Shown here piece by piece: positions 4,523 to 17,459 of a DNA stretch of 64,000 nt (positions within the stretch are counted from its first letter, which is position 1; every line of letters begins with the position of its first letter). A model generated the notes under the pieces. It saw nothing but the letters and a program-made list of their open reading frames with translations, was not told where the DNA came from and searched no databases. The DNA comes from Leptospiraceae bacterium (GTDB lineage Bacteria; Spirochaetota; Leptospiria; Leptospirales; Leptospiraceae), in the NCBI GenBank assembly GCA_015075105.1, contig JABTUZ010000002.1:1102001-1166000 (forward strand). The letters are read 5' to 3'. Position numbers and translations under genes: made by a program.

Positions 4523-4765
4523 CTATTCTCCGTTAAATGCCTTCACTATCGCTCTGGCGAAGGTGAGCATCTGCACATGTTGGATGTACTCAACCTCTGC
4601 GGCCAAAGTTTCAACCAACTCATCCATCTTCTCGTAACTGGAAAGATCATCCTGTTGCAGGGCTGGGTATTCGATGATCCTTCCAGGGAAATAGTGCCGA
4701 AGCAAAACTTCGAGTGCTCCATGTCCTTTTACGAGAGACTGATATTTCAGCCCTATAGCTTTTTT
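4523..4765 (-). CDS. Tail assembly chaperone, -1 frame extension (gpGT-type T domain)
   Basis: This is an open frame in the -1 register relative to the upstream chaperone gene. Its first methionine is at 4705, but the frame is open back to the slippery heptamer A AAA AAG (4765-4759). It therefore reads as an 80-residue extension produced by frameshifting, not as an independent gene. The extension ends two bases before the tape-measure start, exactly as in the lambda G/GT and P2/Mu-like chaperone arrangement. In that system the rarer fused product contacts the tape measure and recruits tube subunits. The region between 4706 and 4752 is thereby explained. Confidence 0.75.
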   Translation of the reverse strand, partial: KKAIGLKYQSLVKGHGALEVLLRHYFPGRIIEYPALQQDDLSSYEKMDELVETLAAEVEYIQHVQMLTFARAIVKAFNGE

Positions 4766-5169
4766 GCCGAGGTCTCCTGTGTTACTGCACTCAACTCTGC
4801 GATTTTATTTCCAAGCGGGATGTAAAGCCCGGGAGCTTCCTTGTCCACCCAGGATTGCACCACATCAATGGATGGATAAAGTAAACATGAGCCGACAAGA
4901 AACTGCATCGAGTCTGACTGCTTTTGTTTTTTTGCTCTCTCCAAAACATCGTCGAGAAGAGCCCGGCTTGGAAGCCTGACAATCACCTTCTTGTCGCCGG
5001 TTGTAATCAGGTGGATGCCTCCACGATTCTCAAATTCTTTTTTCAACACTCCAATTGATTCTTTGTGTTGTTCGAGAAAATCGTCGTTGATATCCGCATA
5101 CGGTTGTGGAAGTTTATCGAAAGCGCTTTTCAGCGTTTCGTTTGATGCTATAATCGGATTGATATTCAT
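4753..5169 (-). CDS. Tail assembly chaperone (gpG-type)
   Basis: This 138-residue acidic/helical protein lies between the tail tube and tape measure genes. It ends in Thr-Ser-Ala-Lys-Lys-Leu followed by TAG, and the Lys-Lys codons form the slippery site. Position, size and the frameshift signal identify it as the short form of the tail chaperone pair. It probably coats the tape measure during tail assembly and is absent from the finished virion (family knowledge). Confidence 0.75.
   Translation of the reverse strand: MNINPIIASNETLKSAFDKLPQPYADINDDFLEQHKESIGVLKKEFENRGGIHLITTGDKKVIVRLPSRALLDDVLERAKKQKQSDSMQFLVGSCLLYPSIDVVQSWVDKEAPGLYIPLGNKIAELSAVTQETSAKKL
4759..4765 (-). promoter_or_regulatory. 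Programmed -1 frameshift slippery heptamer A AAA AAG (tail chaperone)
   Basis: On the minus strand the in-frame codons read GCA AAA AAG CTA TAG, so the heptamer A AAA AAG lies in the register required for tandem -1 slippage, six bases before the stop. Slipping by one base opens the frame through to 4523. I did not identify a convincing downstream pseudoknot by eye. Confidence 0.75.
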
Positions 5170-9286: not shown

Positions 9287-10537
9287 CTATGCGTGCTTGG
9301 ATTTCAGATGACACGCCTGGTCGAATAATTTTCCGAAGCCGGCATAAACGCTTATAGCAGTCTCGTTGAATTGCTGATTGATGACTTTATCGACTTCGAT
9401 GATCGAAGAATTTTTCTCTTCGTAATATACCATCATGGAATCTTTTTCGTAAGTGAACCAGTCCCAGTTGGTCATTGCGTCGTGAGTTCTCCACAAAATG
9501 TTGAAGAAGTTTCTGATCTCTCCGGTCTTGACAAATTCTTCCTGCAGATTCAGACTTTGCAGAGCCTTGAAATTGGTTTCATCGGCAAGCATATCGAGTA
9601 GAGTTTGCTTGGACAAAACAAAGTGAGTCCATTTGTGACCCTTCGGTTTCTGCTTGATGAGTATATCCAGAAGGTCTGAATATTTCGGCGTTGTAGTTAC
9701 TGTCGTTGAAGCTGGAGCTTCCGATCCGGTATTCCCATCTCCTTCAATTGCAACCTTCAATCCGAGTTGCGCCATGTCCTGGCTCATATTGTATCCGATT
9801 CTTTGCAAGAGAATCGAAAGAATATTCACTCTCACTCGCCTTTGAGCTTCGTAGCTGATCTCGATATCAGTTCCGAACTTCTGCAATTTAACAGAACCTT
9901 CTTTTGTCTTGATGGTAGATTTTGTAAGCCTCGAACCCTCCACAGATTTTTTCATCTTTGCATTTTCTTTTGTGAAATCAAGGGCGATCTGATCTATATT
10001 CGCACCAGTTACAATTTCTTTAGTTGCGTAAAGGTCTTCGACTCTCAATTCTCCTGCATCATAATTCATCCCAAGCTGAATCTGGTCGGATATATAGGCA
10101 GGGACAAGAATCTTTGAATTCGGAGTCCTGAAAAAATCTTCCAGCATTACCCGTCCGGAATTTATATCGATTCCTGCGGATAAAAATTGCCGCTCAATTG
10201 GAGACAATTTTCCGGCGTCCGATTCTTTCGGATCAAAACCTGCCTCCAGTTCCTTTTTTTCGACATACTCTGAAAACGAAAGATTTTCCTCGTTGGCATG
10301 TTTGTACATTTCCTTGTCGAGTTTAATTTCTTTCAGGTCGGCTTTTCTGATTTTCAGATTCTGTTTTGTGGCCACAGCCACTCCGACTGCAAGATTTAGT
10401 TTCTGGCAATTCCCGAATGAACCGTCATACAGATACTGTCCAAGGACAGAAATATCCATGTGAAATCCCGTAAGCTTGACCGCCAGGGCAGTTACGGCTA
10501 ACGCTACGAAAGCAACTAACACATATTTTAACTTCAT
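9287..10537 (-). CDS. Major capsid protein with an N-terminal hydrophobic segment
   Basis: This 416-residue protein fits a HK97-fold major head protein. A charged helical N-arm spans about residues 60-130. The E-loop/P-domain region contains 'VPAYISDQIQLGMNYDAG', and the segment TDIEISYEAQRRVRVNILSI resembles the spine helix region of Mu gpT-like capsids. The first ~35 residues are unusual: MKLKYVLVAFVALAVTALAV is a Lys-flanked hydrophobic stretch that looks like a signal/anchor. It could be a scaffolding part removed on maturation. It follows the decoration gene with a 4-base overlap. Confidence 0.75.
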   Translation of the reverse strand: MKLKYVLVAFVALAVTALAVKLTGFHMDISVLGQYLYDGSFGNCQKLNLAVGVAVATKQNLKIRKADLKEIKLDKEMYKHANEENLSFSEYVEKKELEAGFDPKESDAGKLSPIERQFLSAGIDINSGRVMLEDFFRTPNSKILVPAYISDQIQLGMNYDAGELRVEDLYATKEIVTGANIDQIALDFTKENAKMKKSVEGSRLTKSTIKTKEGSVKLQKFGTDIEISYEAQRRVRVNILSILLQRIGYNMSQDMAQLGLKVAIEGDGNTGSEAPASTTVTTTPKYSDLLDILIKQKPKGHKWTHFVLSKQTLLDMLADETNFKALQSLNLQEEFVKTGEIRNFFNILWRTHDAMTNWDWFTYEKDSMMVYYEEKNSSIIEVDKVINQQFNETAISVYAGFGKLFDQACHLKSKHA

Positions 10538-10929: not shown

Positions 10930-12303
10930 TTATTTCCTTACTGTTATGTAATCATCCGGTTTTCCGGATGAAAGACCTGTTTCGCCTGACGCTCTTGTAA
11001 TATCCGATGAACCACACTGGTTGCACTTAACCGGAAATTTATCTTCGAGCTTTGCTCCATATTCCTGACACAGAGCTTTCGATTGTTCTAAGTTCGCATT
11101 CTGGATCATGGAAACCATTGCAGGCGATTCTTTCCCGTTCACGAAAACACGGTAGGCTTTGAGAGCCGCTTCACGATATCCCTGCAAAATTTTCTTTGGT
11201 TCATCGAGAAGTCCTGAAAGTTCAGATACTTTTTTCTCGAAATCAAATCCGTCCGGAAATTCCCCAAGAGCAAATAAGGTAGCTAATTTTTTTAGATTAC
11301 CTTCCGCCGAAGTTTTCTCAGTTTTCAATCCGGCAATCTGTTTCTCCATCGACTGTAACACAGAAACCATTTGATCCGGATTCAATTCCACTTCTGTATC
11401 AGTCTCTTTGAACCCGAGTGAAGCCACTGCAACGCCAAGCACCTTCAGTAATGCTGTTTTAATTTTCAAACTATCCTCCTTTGGTTTTTCTTCTGCCCCA
11501 GTATCGCCTGACGCACTTTGCGACAAGTCTGCTTCTCCGGAAAATTCTTTGTCTTCCTGAAAGTTTTCTTCCCGCGTTTCACTTTCTTTATCAAAAATAA
11601 TTCCGTTATTTTGGTTTGCGAAAAGTTTCTTCGCGTTCGGGTCTGCCCCGGCATATACGACAGAGACCTCGGGGACTGAAAGAATTTTCGTGACTACAAA
11701 TCTTACGATGGAACCTTCCAACTCCTGTCCGAGAAACCAGTAGAATCCATCCAAATCCGGATGGGATTTTTCCCAGAGAAAATGAATTCCGGCAGAAACC
11801 GAATCCAGAACCGGAGGGTCTGCCTGCAATCGCTTGATCACATCATCCGCGAAATCATAGTAGAGACGGAAAAGTCCATCTATCCCTTCAAGACCTTTGG
11901 AATTTGTCCACTCAGGATTGGAAATCGTTCCAATCGAATCTTCGATCGAAGTAAAATGATTGCGAAAAACCTTTGTTGAAAATAGAGATAGAGCCGATTT
12001 CAGAACATTGTCTTTTGTGAAATCAAGATAATAATCCGAAATATACGTTTTAGATAGAATCCGGAACAGGAACTCCTCATACCGTAAACCGGATGGAGTG
12101 ATTTTATTTGCAGGAGATGACTGAACAGCCGGAGCAGTTTCCAAGTTCTGTCCTTTTATTTGAATTGGTTGTGGAATGAACGAACCGCAAGCGCGAAGAC
12201 CCACAAATGCCTTGCCGGAAGTGTGAACCTTGACTCCACACTCAAGACTCGCCCAGCCGGACGAATCGAAATTCAACTTTCTTTTGGTCATCTCTTTATT
12301 CAT
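10930..12303 (-). CDS. Head scaffold/protease candidate (Mu gp32-type position) with a C-terminal zinc ribbon
   Basis: This 457-residue protein precedes the decoration and capsid genes, where Mu encodes the gpI protease/scaffold. The middle holds an acidic linker (residues ~235-275), and the third quarter is a coiled-coil-like helix (EVELNPDQMVSVLQSMEKQI and following), as in scaffold domains. The C-terminus carries CNQCGSS, half of a zinc ribbon, plus a flexible tail. I do not see a clear protease catalytic motif, so scaffold function is better supported than protease. It overlaps the upstream small gene by 8 bases. Confidence 0.5.
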   Translation of the reverse strand: MNKEMTKRKLNFDSSGWASLECGVKVHTSGKAFVGLRACGSFIPQPIQIKGQNLETAPAVQSSPANKITPSGLRYEEFLFRILSKTYISDYYLDFTKDNVLKSALSLFSTKVFRNHFTSIEDSIGTISNPEWTNSKGLEGIDGLFRLYYDFADDVIKRLQADPPVLDSVSAGIHFLWEKSHPDLDGFYWFLGQELEGSIVRFVVTKILSVPEVSVVYAGADPNAKKLFANQNNGIIFDKESETREENFQEDKEFSGEADLSQSASGDTGAEEKPKEDSLKIKTALLKVLGVAVASLGFKETDTEVELNPDQMVSVLQSMEKQIAGLKTEKTSAEGNLKKLATLFALGEFPDGFDFEKKVSELSGLLDEPKKILQGYREAALKAYRVFVNGKESPAMVSMIQNANLEQSKALCQEYGAKLEDKFPVKCNQCGSSDITRASGETGLSSGKPDDYITVRK

Positions 12304-12651: not shown

Positions 12652-12963
12652 TTATTTTTTTACTGCGTAGTAGAGTTCTTTGACCTGATCGCGAACAGAT
12701 TCAGGAATGTTTTCCAAAGGATATTCGCCTTTGACGATTTTTTGAACCTGCCAAAGCCAAGACTTATGAGATAATTTGTAGTCTTCTTCATTAATCCATT
12801 TTGTCATGGCGTAAATTGCCTGAACATATTCAGGCAGGAGAAATGAATATTCTTCTTCCTGAAGAGAATAGACCATACCAAAGACCTCTATCGTATCCAG
12901 GTCTTCATCGTCTGCGATCACATCGGCAATGATTCGTTTGATTATTTCTGCACGGGTCATCAT
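12652..12963 (-). CDS. Hypothetical phage protein after MuF
   Basis: This 103-residue mainly helical protein (MMTRAEIIKRIIADVIADDE at the start; ESVRDQVKELYYAVKK at the end) overlaps the MuF stop by 4 bases. It is the last gene before the second late promoter. No family recognised. The high content of Glu, Tyr and Trp suggests a compact helical protein; it could be a head accessory factor. Confidence 0.55.
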   Translation of the reverse strand: MMTRAEIIKRIIADVIADDEDLDTIEVFGMVYSLQEEEYSFLLPEYVQAIYAMTKWINEEDYKLSHKSWLWQVQKIVKGEYPLENIPESVRDQVKELYYAVKK

Positions 12964-14300
12964 AATATCTCAAGCCATTCTTCAACTTTAGTCTTTTGCG
13001 GGTCAAGCTGAAAAAAAGTTGATATCTTGTTTGAATCCGGGTCAACTGTAACCAGCCCATTGTATTTTTTTGAATAGAAACCAAATCGTTTGTCATTGTA
13101 ACGATAATAGGCAAACACACGATCAAAAGATTGTAGTATATCCTCGCTCATTTTGACGTATTCTGAACTGTCGTTTGCTCCAAATTCGGCTCCATGTTTT
13201 CCGAATTTCCTGTCAATCGTTGCTGTATCCCATACCGTAGTATTTCTTAAAGCGTCAATACGATTCAGCAACTCTTGAGGAGTGAGATTTTGGAGTTCGC
13301 TGTATCTCTGGGATGTTTTCCATTTTGGATCAGTAAGGTCCGCATTACTTGTATCAAGTGTTCCACTAAAAAATCCCCCTCCGGCTTTCTCAATCTTTGT
13401 TTCAAAACTCGCTACTACAATCGTCCGGCATCTCGGATGATAGGGAGGGAGTTGATTTTTCAGAACGCCGTTTTTTCCGACAAGGTCTTTTGTCGGGAGA
13501 GAGTCGTGTTTGTCAAAATTCAGGAGGGGATTTTTGAATTTGTCCGTCCAGAATTTAGGGTCGGCAGGATATTCCGATGTAAAATCTTCGATAAAATTTA
13601 CAGCAGTTTCGATCTCAACAATCCTGCCATTCATGATCCGGCAGGTCAAGGAAGTTTTCTGGTCTAAAATCGCGATGATTTCCAGATGTTCGATTCCAAT
13701 TTCTTTCAGGCGATAAACCCGTGAAAAATTTCTTGTCCGGAGAATTTGCCCCCGGACGATAAAGTCCATCTTCTGAATCAACTCTCCATCCAGATTTAAA
13801 CCAGAGCCAAGAAGTTCTTCTTTCAGGCGATTGATCGCTCCTTGAGTGTTTCCTGTATTCAATGCTTCCTCAACAGCTTGAGTAAATGCGTCTTTGTGAT
13901 TGGAAAAAGTATTTCCGATATCGAATTTGTAAGCAGTCTGGAAAAATTTCAGAACGTCTTTATTTGCCGGAAGTTTTTCTGCATCAGATTCCTCCTGAAA
14001 ACTTTGTCCAACGTCCCAGGATTCGCTTAAAACTTCCCTGAAACTACTTTTCATTGCATCTGGAAAATTTTCCCCGAGTTCCGTCTGAATCAGATCGATG
14101 ATGAGTTCGACTGCATTATCTTTGTCGAGATGTTTAGAAACCTCTTTTAACGTGGAATAAACTCTGGTTTTGTAATCGTTGAAAAAATTCTTAACAAAAT
14201 TCTCTTCAAGAGTGTTGTAAATTTTCTCCTCATCGGGCGAAATGGCTCCGAGTTTTACGAAATCGCCTAACTTACAGCAATGTTCTGTTTCTGTGAGCGC
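12960..14300 (-). CDS. MuF (gp30-like) head morphogenesis protein, reached by -1 frameshift from the portal gene
   Basis: The Mu gp30/F family is characterised by a C-terminal motif near PPYHPRCRTIVV, present here at about codon 210 from the first ATG. The first ATG is at 14,054, but the frame is open and coding-like for 82 further codons up to 14,300, without an ATG, GTG or TTG. It begins exactly where the portal gene's A-run ends. The whole frame gives about 446 residues, close to Mu gp30 (~424). MuF binds the portal and is incorporated in the head. So either the two are fused by programmed -1 frameshifting, or one A is missing from the assembly. Starting at 14,054 would remove a conserved-looking domain. 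Confidence 0.7.
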   Translation of the reverse strand, partial: ALTETEHCCKLGDFVKLGAISPDEEKIYNTLEENFVKNFFNDYKTRVYSTLKEVSKHLDKDNAVELIIDLIQTELGENFPDAMKSSFREVLSESWDVGQSFQEESDAEKLPANKDVLKFFQTAYKFDIGNTFSNHKDAFTQAVEEALNTGNTQGAINRLKEELLGSGLNLDGELIQKMDFIVRGQILRTRNFSRVYRLKEIGIEHLEIIAILDQKTSLTCRIMNGRIVEIETAVNFIEDFTSEYPADPKFWTDKFKNPLLNFDKHDSLPTKDLVGKNGVLKNQLPPYHPRCRTIVVASFETKIEKAGGGFFSGTLDTSNADLTDPKWKTSQRYSELQNLTPQELLNRIDALRNTTVWDTATIDRKFGKHGAEFGANDSSEYVKMSEDILQSFDRVFAYYRYNDKRFGFYSKKYNGLVTVDPDSNKISTFFQLDPQKTKVEEWLEIL

Positions 14301-15808
14301 TTTTTTTTTTCGAAATCGACGTTTATCAGATTTTTCAGGTCGGATTCCGGATTTTCATCCGGATTATGTCGTTTCGGTTGTCCGTCACTTTTCTCATGCC
14401 CGAAATCTTTTTCGTAATAGTGTTCATTTGTGTTCATGGAAGGGAAGTAAGGGTAAGACAGCCGACCGGCTACAATTTGGCTTAAAATCGATTTTAACGC
14501 GTTTTGTGAATTTTGAATTTTTGTCGCGCTTTCATAACCGAGTTCCTGCGCTCCGGTATCAGGATCAATGATCCCGGAAGCGATTTTTTTTAGCACATTA
14601 TCGATTTTTAAGCTGTCTGATCGGTTGCGGGATTCATCAGCCTGTGCCTCTGCCAGCGGATCCAGTGACAAATTGGATTTCCAGACTCCTTTTACCTGAC
14701 CAAATTTATATCCTTTCAACCTGAGATGAAGCGTTAGTGCTTTCTCTAAAAAGCGTTTTGCCGGATGCCTGATGTTTTGGGCTTTCAATTGAAACAGTCT
14801 TCCTGCAATTTTTGCATAAGACTCAGTTACAGAATAGGATCTTCCGAGAATAAACAAATCAGTGTCTATGCCGGAGGCAATCTGCTCTTCCTGATAACGG
14901 GCAATGTCGGAAAATCCGCCGGACTTGTCCGATGCCACAGAATGATGCTCGATTTTTGTACCGTCGAAAGCGGCCATAAACCCGGAGCCGGAATTTTTTT
15001 CGAATCCCTCTTTCGCCTCTTTCAAAAATTTTCTATTTTCTTTTTCAATATCTGCGTTCGGTGTGCCGGGTTTTGGGGCCGGCTTCTTGAAGAGCGCTAC
15101 GATAAATCCGAGAAGCCCCCATTTATTGATGTGCTTGTCAACATTCTCTCCCGTTTTGTGCTGGGACAAAACCCATTTCAAAGCAGAAATAAAAGGAGGA
15201 ATTCCGTATGGAGATTCTTCTGAATTTTCTATTGCCTCGTAGGAATATATTTCAGGATTTAAAGTGGCGTATGTTCCATTTTTCGTTTTCTGCATCGGTA
15301 CAAATTTAAAACGATCTACAATATTTGTTTTGGAATCAATGGGCTGCTTTTCAAAAACCACATTTTTCACAGGGATCAAACGAATCTCTTCCACTTCCGA
15401 AAGGTCGAGATTCGGCACGGCCTCCGCAGAGAGCGCACCTGTTATAGCAGTTTGTCGGATTAACCGGTTCAGAATTCCCGGATGTAAATCAAACCATGAA
15501 TCAATTTCGTTTTGGAGATTTACTTTTGCTTTATCGTCCACTCCGGAAAAGTCCCACGTAAGGCCAGTATTTCCGATTGAGATAACTCGCTTTAACGCCT
15601 GACTTAAATCAGGTGTAATGAGTACAAGTTTTTCGATTGTATCCAGCATCTCGACGGGATAGTCAGGATATACTTTATTTGTAAAATTCAAAATCTCTTG
15701 TTTTTGCTCAACGAATGGTTTCAGAACGGATGCGAACTCAATAAATGAACTTGAATCCGAAGAAGAATCTGCTTTAAAAAAACTCTTGATTTTTTCAATA
15801 ATTCCCAT
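14267..15808 (-). CDS. Portal protein (Mu gp29 / DUF935)
   Basis: This 513-residue DUF935-type portal forms the dodecameric ring through which DNA enters the head. I place the start at the ATG at 15,808 (MGIIEKIKSFFKADSSS), after the terminase gene; the frame also has a start 42 bases upstream inside the terminase end. Portal landmarks are the helical wing (LTWDFSGVDDKAKVN...) and a central region (IPPFISALKWVLSQHK), then an acidic C-terminus. It ends in Phe-Glu-Lys-Lys-Lys-Arg just before the frame continues 10 codons to TAG. The run of ten A residues codes for the lysines and is the slip site towards MuF. Confidence 0.8.
   Translation of the reverse strand: MGIIEKIKSFFKADSSSDSSSFIEFASVLKPFVEQKQEILNFTNKVYPDYPVEMLDTIEKLVLITPDLSQALKRVISIGNTGLTWDFSGVDDKAKVNLQNEIDSWFDLHPGILNRLIRQTAITGALSAEAVPNLDLSEVEEIRLIPVKNVVFEKQPIDSKTNIVDRFKFVPMQKTKNGTYATLNPEIYSYEAIENSEESPYGIPPFISALKWVLSQHKTGENVDKHINKWGLLGFIVALFKKPAPKPGTPNADIEKENRKFLKEAKEGFEKNSGSGFMAAFDGTKIEHHSVASDKSGGFSDIARYQEEQIASGIDTDLFILGRSYSVTESYAKIAGRLFQLKAQNIRHPAKRFLEKALTLHLRLKGYKFGQVKGVWKSNLSLDPLAEAQADESRNRSDSLKIDNVLKKIASGIIDPDTGAQELGYESATKIQNSQNALKSILSQIVAGRLSYPYFPSMNTNEHYYEKDFGHEKSDGQPKRHNPDENPESDLKNLINVDFEKKKRSQKQNIAVS
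14300..14306 (-). promoter_or_regulatory. Canonical -1 slippery heptamer A AAA AAG at the end of the portal gene
   Basis: The minus strand reads GAA AAA AAA AAG CGC in the portal frame (14,311-14,297). The heptamer A AAA AAG therefore lies in the right register, extended by three more A residues (ten in all). Slipping by -1 gives AAA AAA GCG CTC, entering an open frame of 446 codons (MuF). The heptamer matches the E. coli dnaX type. No clear downstream stem-loop was found by eye. Confidence 0.6.
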
Positions 15809-15809
15809 A

Positions 15810-17459
15810 TCAATAAACCGGCAATGTGCCTGCCCCTCCGATTCCTCCACTCAGTTCATAGGCAAGGCGCATACTGTTCAATGCCATCCCGAAGTGGTTT
15901 TCAACTTTCTTTTTGAATGAATATTTTGGTCTGCCGAATTCATCCTCGCCTCTTTCCCGAATCAGCATCTTCAAATGATATTCGAATTCTTCCATAAGAA
16001 CCAGATCAGGCCCGTCCAGACGGGATTTGTCTGGAAAAATAAAAAGTCCGTTTTTAATCGCATCGACTGTATCCTGAAGGCTTTCGTCCCGATTGATATT
16101 CAGCACTTCGATTTCATCTTCCGAGTTCAGGACATCTTCTTCTTTCAGGGAATATTTTTTGGAAAAATACTGAATCTTGATCTGTTCGGGAAATATCTTT
16201 GCAAGCCGGACGCTCCAACTTTTATTCGGCATCGCGTCAACGATTCCCTGATAAACGGCAAAACGAATGATTGAGCGATGAATAGAATCGTCATCCAATA
16301 CGCTGAACTTTGCAAGACCGATGATTCGTATTCTTGCGTCAGTTGTAGGCTCGCCGAAAACCATGTGAACCGTATCCCCCTGGTCGGCTCCCATGTAACT
16401 ATAGGACTGGGAAATATCATACAAACCATGATCTCCCTTTTGCGAGTCAATGACAGATTGAGTGACAGGCTTTTCTTCATCCGTGCTGTATGGCCAGCCA
16501 ATCACGGATATGTAGAGATTTTTTCTTTTGATATGTGAATTTGCGTTTTTCCAGAGTTGATAAATTTCAGTCGGAGTTTTGTAATTCAAAAACATCTGAG
16601 AAATTTGAACACCTGTATTTTTATGCTTTCTCTTCGCCACATATTCGCCTTTCTGATTGTTCAAAGGCTTATGGCATTTCTCGCAGGCGTAAAAATATTC
16701 CACCTCTTTCGTTTTATTTTTCTTTCCGAAAACTTTTTCAGGATCTTCGAGAAATCTGTTTACCAAGTCATTCCAGTGATTGCAACTATCGCATTTGATC
16801 AGATAGAAATTCTGATCTGAGTCCATAAACTCTGCATGGATTCCGAAATCCTCAATGGACGGCTGAGACCCTGCCATGTCTTTGGCAAAATTGGAGTGCA
16901 AAAGCCTGTCTGAAATAAATCCTGAATTTTCAGGGTTTTGTTCATCGACCTCATCCCGAATCGTTATGTCTGCGTCAAAGGATTTCACATCTTTGAGATT
17001 TGTGGTTCCGTTAAAGCTGAAAAGTGACTTCCCGATATTTTTAATCCGGACGTTATTTACCTCGGATTCTTCAGTGACCATTTTCTGGAAATAGGGAGAA
17101 TGCTTGATAATTGGATCCCAGCGATATTGCACAAAAGCTTTCATTGATTCTCTATCCGGGAAATAAAATCCCCCATTCAGATTTTTTCCATTCGTGAGCC
17201 AGAGAGCGCGTCCTATCATCCAGGTTGAGAAACCAATCTGCGCAGCTTTCATCGCTATCAGTTTTTTTGAATTGGAAAATTTGCGAGTCATGGAGCGAAA
17301 GCATTCATGACCTTTGAATGAATACGGCTCGTATTTCCCGTTTGACCGGATTTGAATTTTGGTAGTGAGAAATTCTTCGAGGGTAGTTTTGTCATATTCA
17401 CGGTCGCCAGCCTCTTTGAATTTTAGTAGAAATTCCTGTTCGGTAGCTGCAGAAATCAT
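15810..17459 (-). CDS. Terminase large subunit (GpA / Mu gp28 type)
   Basis: This 549-residue ATPase-nuclease packages phage DNA. The adenine-binding/Walker A variant is MKAAQIGFST at residues 70-79, and the Walker B is at ADITIRDEVDE (residues 163-173). A zinc-finger-like pair CDSC (223-226) and CEKC (259-262) sits in the nuclease half, as in GpA-type terminases of lambda-like phages. The C-terminal nuclease acidic residues could not be placed with certainty. It overlaps the small subunit by 4 bases and is followed by the portal. Confidence 0.85.
   Translation of the reverse strand: MISAATEQEFLLKFKEAGDREYDKTTLEEFLTTKIQIRSNGKYEPYSFKGHECFRSMTRKFSNSKKLIAMKAAQIGFSTWMIGRALWLTNGKNLNGGFYFPDRESMKAFVQYRWDPIIKHSPYFQKMVTEESEVNNVRIKNIGKSLFSFNGTTNLKDVKSFDADITIRDEVDEQNPENSGFISDRLLHSNFAKDMAGSQPSIEDFGIHAEFMDSDQNFYLIKCDSCNHWNDLVNRFLEDPEKVFGKKNKTKEVEYFYACEKCHKPLNNQKGEYVAKRKHKNTGVQISQMFLNYKTPTEIYQLWKNANSHIKRKNLYISVIGWPYSTDEEKPVTQSVIDSQKGDHGLYDISQSYSYMGADQGDTVHMVFGEPTTDARIRIIGLAKFSVLDDDSIHRSIIRFAVYQGIVDAMPNKSWSVRLAKIFPEQIKIQYFSKKYSLKEEDVLNSEDEIEVLNINRDESLQDTVDAIKNGLFIFPDKSRLDGPDLVLMEEFEYHLKMLIRERGEDEFGRPKYSFKKKVENHFGMALNSMRLAYELSGGIGGAGTLPVY

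Follow-up and report, generated by a model that had tools for sequence, protein, structure and literature searches.

A conserved adenine run between the portal and MuF genes of a Leptospiraceae prophage points to a recoded portal-MuF fusion, probably made mainly by polymerase slippage

The portal is the DNA gateway of a phage head and the nucleator of its assembly. In the Leptospiraceae prophage studied here, the portal gene ends in a run of ten adenines and the following MuF-like minor head protein is encoded in an overlapping frame that lacks a start codon near its beginning, which raises the question of how this protein is made and whether part of it is produced joined to the portal. The sequence analysed is a stretch of 64,000 nucleotides, hereafter the window, in which the packaging module lies on the minus strand in the order TerS, TerL, portal, MuF, a small gene, protease and major head protein. 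The terminase large subunit gene (15810..17459, minus strand; phrog_675, E=2.9e-152; PF05876) is located just upstream of the portal, with the head maturation protease (10930..12303, minus strand; phrog_8158, E=2.2e-133) and the major head protein (9287..10537, minus strand; phrog_3922, E=8e-108) downstream. The placement of the MuF gene directly downstream of the portal is that of MuF (SPP1 gp7-like) packaging modules. Tail sheath, tape measure and baseplate genes and a transposase-like gene are found elsewhere in the window, and the genomes sharing the packaging module belong to Spirochaetota/Leptospiraceae.

The portal gene (14267..15808, minus strand) extends in the zero frame from an ATG at 15808 to a TAG at 14269-14267; residues 4-505 of its 515 match the portal family phrog_3753 (E=7.6e-146), and identity to relatives is 26-43%. 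PDB profile searches with the portal and MuF gave no match. At the junction the minus-strand zero frame reads GTC GAT TTC GAA AAA AAA AAG CGC TCA CAG AAA CAG AAC ATT GCT GTA AGT TAG. The A10 run (14301..14310, minus strand) is a putative slip site holding two in-register heptamers, A AAA AAA at 14309-14303 and A AAA AAG at 14306-14300, the second being an X XXY YYZ heptamer of the ribosomal -1 type. With ten residues it is also as long as the A or T runs, of about nine or more, that are associated with programmed transcriptional slippage; approximately 100 matches to A10 are present in the whole 3.42-Mb genome (both strands, overlaps counted). Past the run, the zero frame closes at the TAG after 11 codons, and this portal tail (14267..14300, minus strand) is dual-coded with MuF. 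An earlier note made from the same DNA had described an A10 run at the portal end that forms an in-register A AAA AAG, and a -1 frame open for 446 codons that encodes MuF; the minus-strand sequence confirms the first, and the open reading and PHROGs matches confirm the second. The note had further held that nine or eleven As would make one continuous gene. Eleven would indeed do so, as would eight and no other length; nine would instead place MuF in the +1 frame.

The MuF frame (12960..14309, minus strand; -1 relative to the portal) is open between a stop at 14357 and a stop at 12960. It matches phrog_18054 (E=3e-69) and phrog_9907, a minor head protein and DNA pilot family (E=3.8e-57), with matches to PHROGs minor head and head morphogenesis families ranging from E 1e-9 to 4e-57. 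The motifs TSxxCRxxNG and PPYHxRCRT are conserved in the protein, and its score against Pfam Phage_Mu_F is 14.5 bits, under the cut-off of 29.6. Its N-terminal segment (KKKALTETEHCCKLGDFVKLGAISPDEEK..., 14055..14309, minus strand), which contains a CC motif, lies upstream of any start and would be reachable only through a shift. As claimed previously, no usable start precedes 14054: ATG, GTG and TTG are all absent from the MuF frame between the run and that position, where only ATC, ATT and CTG occur. The 84 window codons from the run to the ATG at 14054 align to the continuous fused ORF of a relative (L032) with 45% identity over 88 columns (E=4.5e-19), the KKK of the window slip falling on the KKK of the fused ORF, and three further relatives (L041, L036 and L064) also match these codons. 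Within the Leptospira split group, changes between the portal stop and the first start, counted among relatives without a start codon there, are distributed 11/4/33 over codon positions 1/2/3 of the MuF frame (p=6e-7). The homology to L032 and this third-position bias bear out the impression that the extra codons look like real protein, and they indicate protein-level selection on the MuF frame ahead of its first start codon.

These observations bear directly on the possibility that MuF is made as a separate protein, by a non-canonical or internal start or by re-initiation past the portal stop, which we regard as improbable. The MuF genes behind other, distant portals mostly do have an ordinary start of their own, often overlapping the portal stop, and in two loci (L102 and L104) the MuF ATG lies just past it. 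In the L036 group an ATG 6 nt past the run overlaps the alternative-frame stop, and the MuF of L. weilii (L014; NZ_CP092208.1, 7506-8771) is given a CTG start by PGAP/RefSeq. However, the window and most split relatives have no ATG, GTG or TTG for approximately 50-250 nt past the run, and the stretch that a separate start would skip is conserved and has homologues in fused ORFs. The CTG start deprives the L. weilii MuF annotation of an N-terminal part that comparison shows to be coding, and annotation misses the first ~80 MuF residues in these prophages, Leptospira included. Stenotrophomonas phage Summit (L016), considered as a further overlap case, was rejected because its MuF start overlaps the portal stop.

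Among 393 genomes of the phylum that were searched, MuF matches were found in 11 others; their full junctions mostly show the same overlap at A9/A10, and two are a single fused ORF. Single-sequence scans of genome and viral collections with the portal returned zero matches and alignment queries were needed, and further loci were gathered by scans with portal and MuF alignments and clustered at 90% portal identity into 56 clusters. Many of these loci come from metagenomic viral contigs for which no host is named, and their draft homopolymer lengths may be off by one. In 27 of the 56 clusters (window included) a shift of exactly -1 at A9/A10 separates the portal from MuF, which has no early start; this extends to relatives the alignment that had been proposed as a check. 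Two other clusters (L068, L081) have a -1 split at a minimal A AAA AAG, and one (L053) has A9 with MuF in +1. A single fused ORF is found in 7 clusters that still have A9/A10 at the junction, one of them including A8 or A7 members, and in 14 without such a run, in agreement with the prior statement that portal-MuF fusions exist; the remaining clusters are degenerate, have a separate start or were not resolved. Altogether A9/A10 occupies the portal-MuF junction in 35 of the 56 clusters, compared to a background of 5 runs of A9 or longer in 306 kb of relatives' ORFs outside the junction (0.0024 per 150 nt). By sequence comparison, both the run and the relation of the frames are conserved at this junction.

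Given this recurrence, it is scarcely credible that an inactivating mutation, or a mistake in sequencing or assembly, accounts for the shift. Homopolymers are error-prone places, but independent assemblies, a complete L. weilii plasmid among them, show the same -1 relation at A9/A10 in 27 clusters, and the frame past the run is under selection; sequencing error was rejected on the recurrence across portal clusters. It is also very improbable that the run acts as a contingency (phase-variable) homopolymer whose length changes at the DNA level toggle the fusion. One Leptospira-type cluster does include A9 (21 members), A8 (4) and A7 (1), but such length variants come from draft viral contigs, where homopolymer errors are likely. 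Run lengths across lineages are tight at 9-10, MuF is nearly always in frame 0 or -1, and every particle is expected to require both the portal and the MuF head part. Taken together, the conserved junction, the fused homologues and the selection on the frame before any start strongly support a programmed portal-MuF fusion, and we consider recoding to this fusion very likely. The earlier note had proposed that a canonical -1 slippery site would join the two proteins if the shift is programmed; on the same three lines of evidence the fusion is strongly supported, while a ribosomal route to it is possible and less favoured.

On the tree, clusters that are fused with a run are interspersed with split clusters, requiring at least 6 state changes, and the window's nearest relatives (L032 and L036) are themselves fused with A9. 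The run is thus kept irrespective of the default frame. The 14 clusters fused without a run indicate that a mixture of portal and fusion is not needed universally and that some relatives tolerate an obligate fusion. In the L036 cluster, near-identical contigs (L041 versus L042; L055 versus L056; L050) switch between fused and split as the run is A9, A8 or A7.

We propose that the portal and the start-less MuF frame form one recoded gene, from which standard decoding would yield the portal alone and slippage on A10 would yield the portal joined in frame to MuF, so that portal rings would hold a minority of subunits with a C-terminal MuF domain. RNA polymerase would be the main slipper, adding or dropping As on runs of at least nine, and a ribosomal -1 slip on the same As would perhaps contribute. 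One recoded gene with a fusion arising through A10 slippage, most likely mainly by RNA polymerase, is the reading that we hold to be probable, and we lean to a similar degree toward polymerase slippage as the main route to the fusion. We infer the slippage itself, its mainly transcriptional route, its efficiency and its purpose, which would be to bring few MuF copies to the portal.

Programmed -1 frameshifting by the ribosome on A AAA AAG as the only source of the fusion appears less likely, though several points favour it. The heptamer is in exact register in the window, an in-register A-rich heptamer is found at every A9/A10 split site, L068 and L081 hold only A AAA AAG with strong 3' structure, and the same prophage has a putative ribosomal-type frameshift site in its tail chaperone candidate. 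Against this, no Shine-Dalgarno-like motif occurs within 22 nt upstream of the window site, and structure there is not significant (local fold z +0.9; 3' window z -1.26). Several sites end in AAC, on which shifting in bacteria is less favourable than on AAG (PMC5009743). Nor does a ribosomal shift alone explain why runs reach 9-10 residues or why several lineages retain them in fused ORFs. Since runs of 9-10 exceed ribosomal need, for which A6G suffices, and persist in fused ORFs, and the window is without the usual stimulators, transcriptional slippage fits better.

A9/A10 sites have no 3' structure in general (mean z -0.4, all sites), whereas both minimal A AAA AAG sites (L068/L081) do (z -3.4, -2.5), a contrast that parallels Thermus versus E. 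coli dnaX (PMC5009743); clear 3' structure is also present at L018/L069. In around twelve relatives the run is directly preceded by a strong hairpin (KS p=0.002), and in the Leptospira group one pair, the sole covarying pair, has changed on both sides. The corresponding hairpin in the window is weak (-1.9 kcal/mol), and the mechanism there therefore rests mainly on run length and the family pattern; an Rfam search of the window found nothing. Two relatives have only A7, which is sufficient for ribosomes and marginal for polymerase; in IS1447, seven As sufficed for slippage (PMC6211511). Early stops in both alternative frames past the run were considered as proof of slippage and set aside: their counts are striking, but no significant enrichment was found against a within-gene control (split +1 frame, p=0.34; fused, p=0.38 and 0.11), and the mirror layout of stops is for this reason no evidence by itself.

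Within tailed phages, recoding is best known from tail chaperones, and a candidate of this kind is present in the same prophage. The ORF upstream of the tape measure gene (4753-5169, minus strand) ends in GC A AAA AAG CTA TAG. The slip would be at 4765-4759, preceded by AGGAG and followed a few nt later by a 7-bp hairpin, and the -1 frame of the ORF adds about 80 codons. This site is predicted to be a classical translational -1 frameshift. It has a Shine-Dalgarno-like motif, A6G and a 3' hairpin, whereas at the portal-MuF site A10 stands without any of the three. The G/GT tail chaperones of tailed phages resemble the portal-MuF pair in being a morphogenesis pair with a shorter product, a minority C-terminal extension and a shift in the -1 direction, but the genes involved are different.

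Precedents for both routes exist outside these prophages. From one start, the dnaX genes yield two products of different length, tau/gamma, Thermus thermophilus by transcriptional slippage on a run of nine and E. coli by a ribosomal shift on A AAA AAG with stimulators (PMC5009743). As at the portal-MuF junction, homologous genes solve the problem by a run or by A AAA AAG, and the long product can be in frame or dependent on a shift. Unlike dnaX, portal and MuF are a phage structural pair in which the long product would add a separate MuF domain to a ring-forming portal, and more than 30 lineage clusters are seen here with the default frame switched repeatedly. Shigella spa13 is a further precedent for transcriptional slippage (PMC5009743), and Shigella mxiE also belongs to this class. 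IS1447 joins OrfA and OrfB by transcriptional slippage on A9, with a stem-loop before the run (PMC6211511), and slippage in a Roseiflexus IS is aided by a stem-loop (PMC5009743). In these elements a slippery run ends the first ORF after a stem-loop and the slip joins two ORFs, a layout that the portal-MuF junction would resemble; in IS1447, however, a transposase is joined by a +1 slip, whereas head proteins here would be joined by the equivalent of -1, and the stem-loop of the IS elements has a counterpart in only a subset of portal-MuF sites, weak in the window. SPP1 gp7 is likewise encoded directly downstream of the portal but is a separate protein (PMC5576092), whereas the start-less MuF here would be covalently attached to some portal subunits. 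In a study of Leptospira transposable prophages, Portal and Pilot appear as two distinct genes, and the text is silent on frameshifting or slippage (PMC8705779). In the open-licence full-text literature searched, we found no prior report of a frameshift or slippage between portal and MuF, nor of conserved portal recoding. The homologous sites described here (A9/A10, A6G with a hairpin, and fused without a run) form a natural series for separating polymerase from ribosome slippage.

A portal ring is built of twelve subunits. Published slip rates are ~16% in each direction for IS1447 (PMC6211511), 25-30% for spa13 and about half for dnaX (PMC5009743). Applied to such a ring, these rates would correspond to roughly two to six MuF domains, and it is plausible that the slip sets the MuF copy number per head. 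The broader proposal, that frame-indifferent polymerase slippage on A9-A10 sets the MuF number on the portal ring across a widespread phage family whose lineages have repeatedly switched the default between portal and fusion while keeping the run, we consider about evenly balanced between right and wrong. If true, the DNA gateway would be a programmed mixed ring, the delivery of a low-copy MuF/pilot protein to the portal would be explained, and asymmetry of the portal ring would become testable. Just past the slip (14241-14309 in the window), a CC or CxC motif is present in the window and many relatives and missing from other clusters; this motif is possibly metal-binding.
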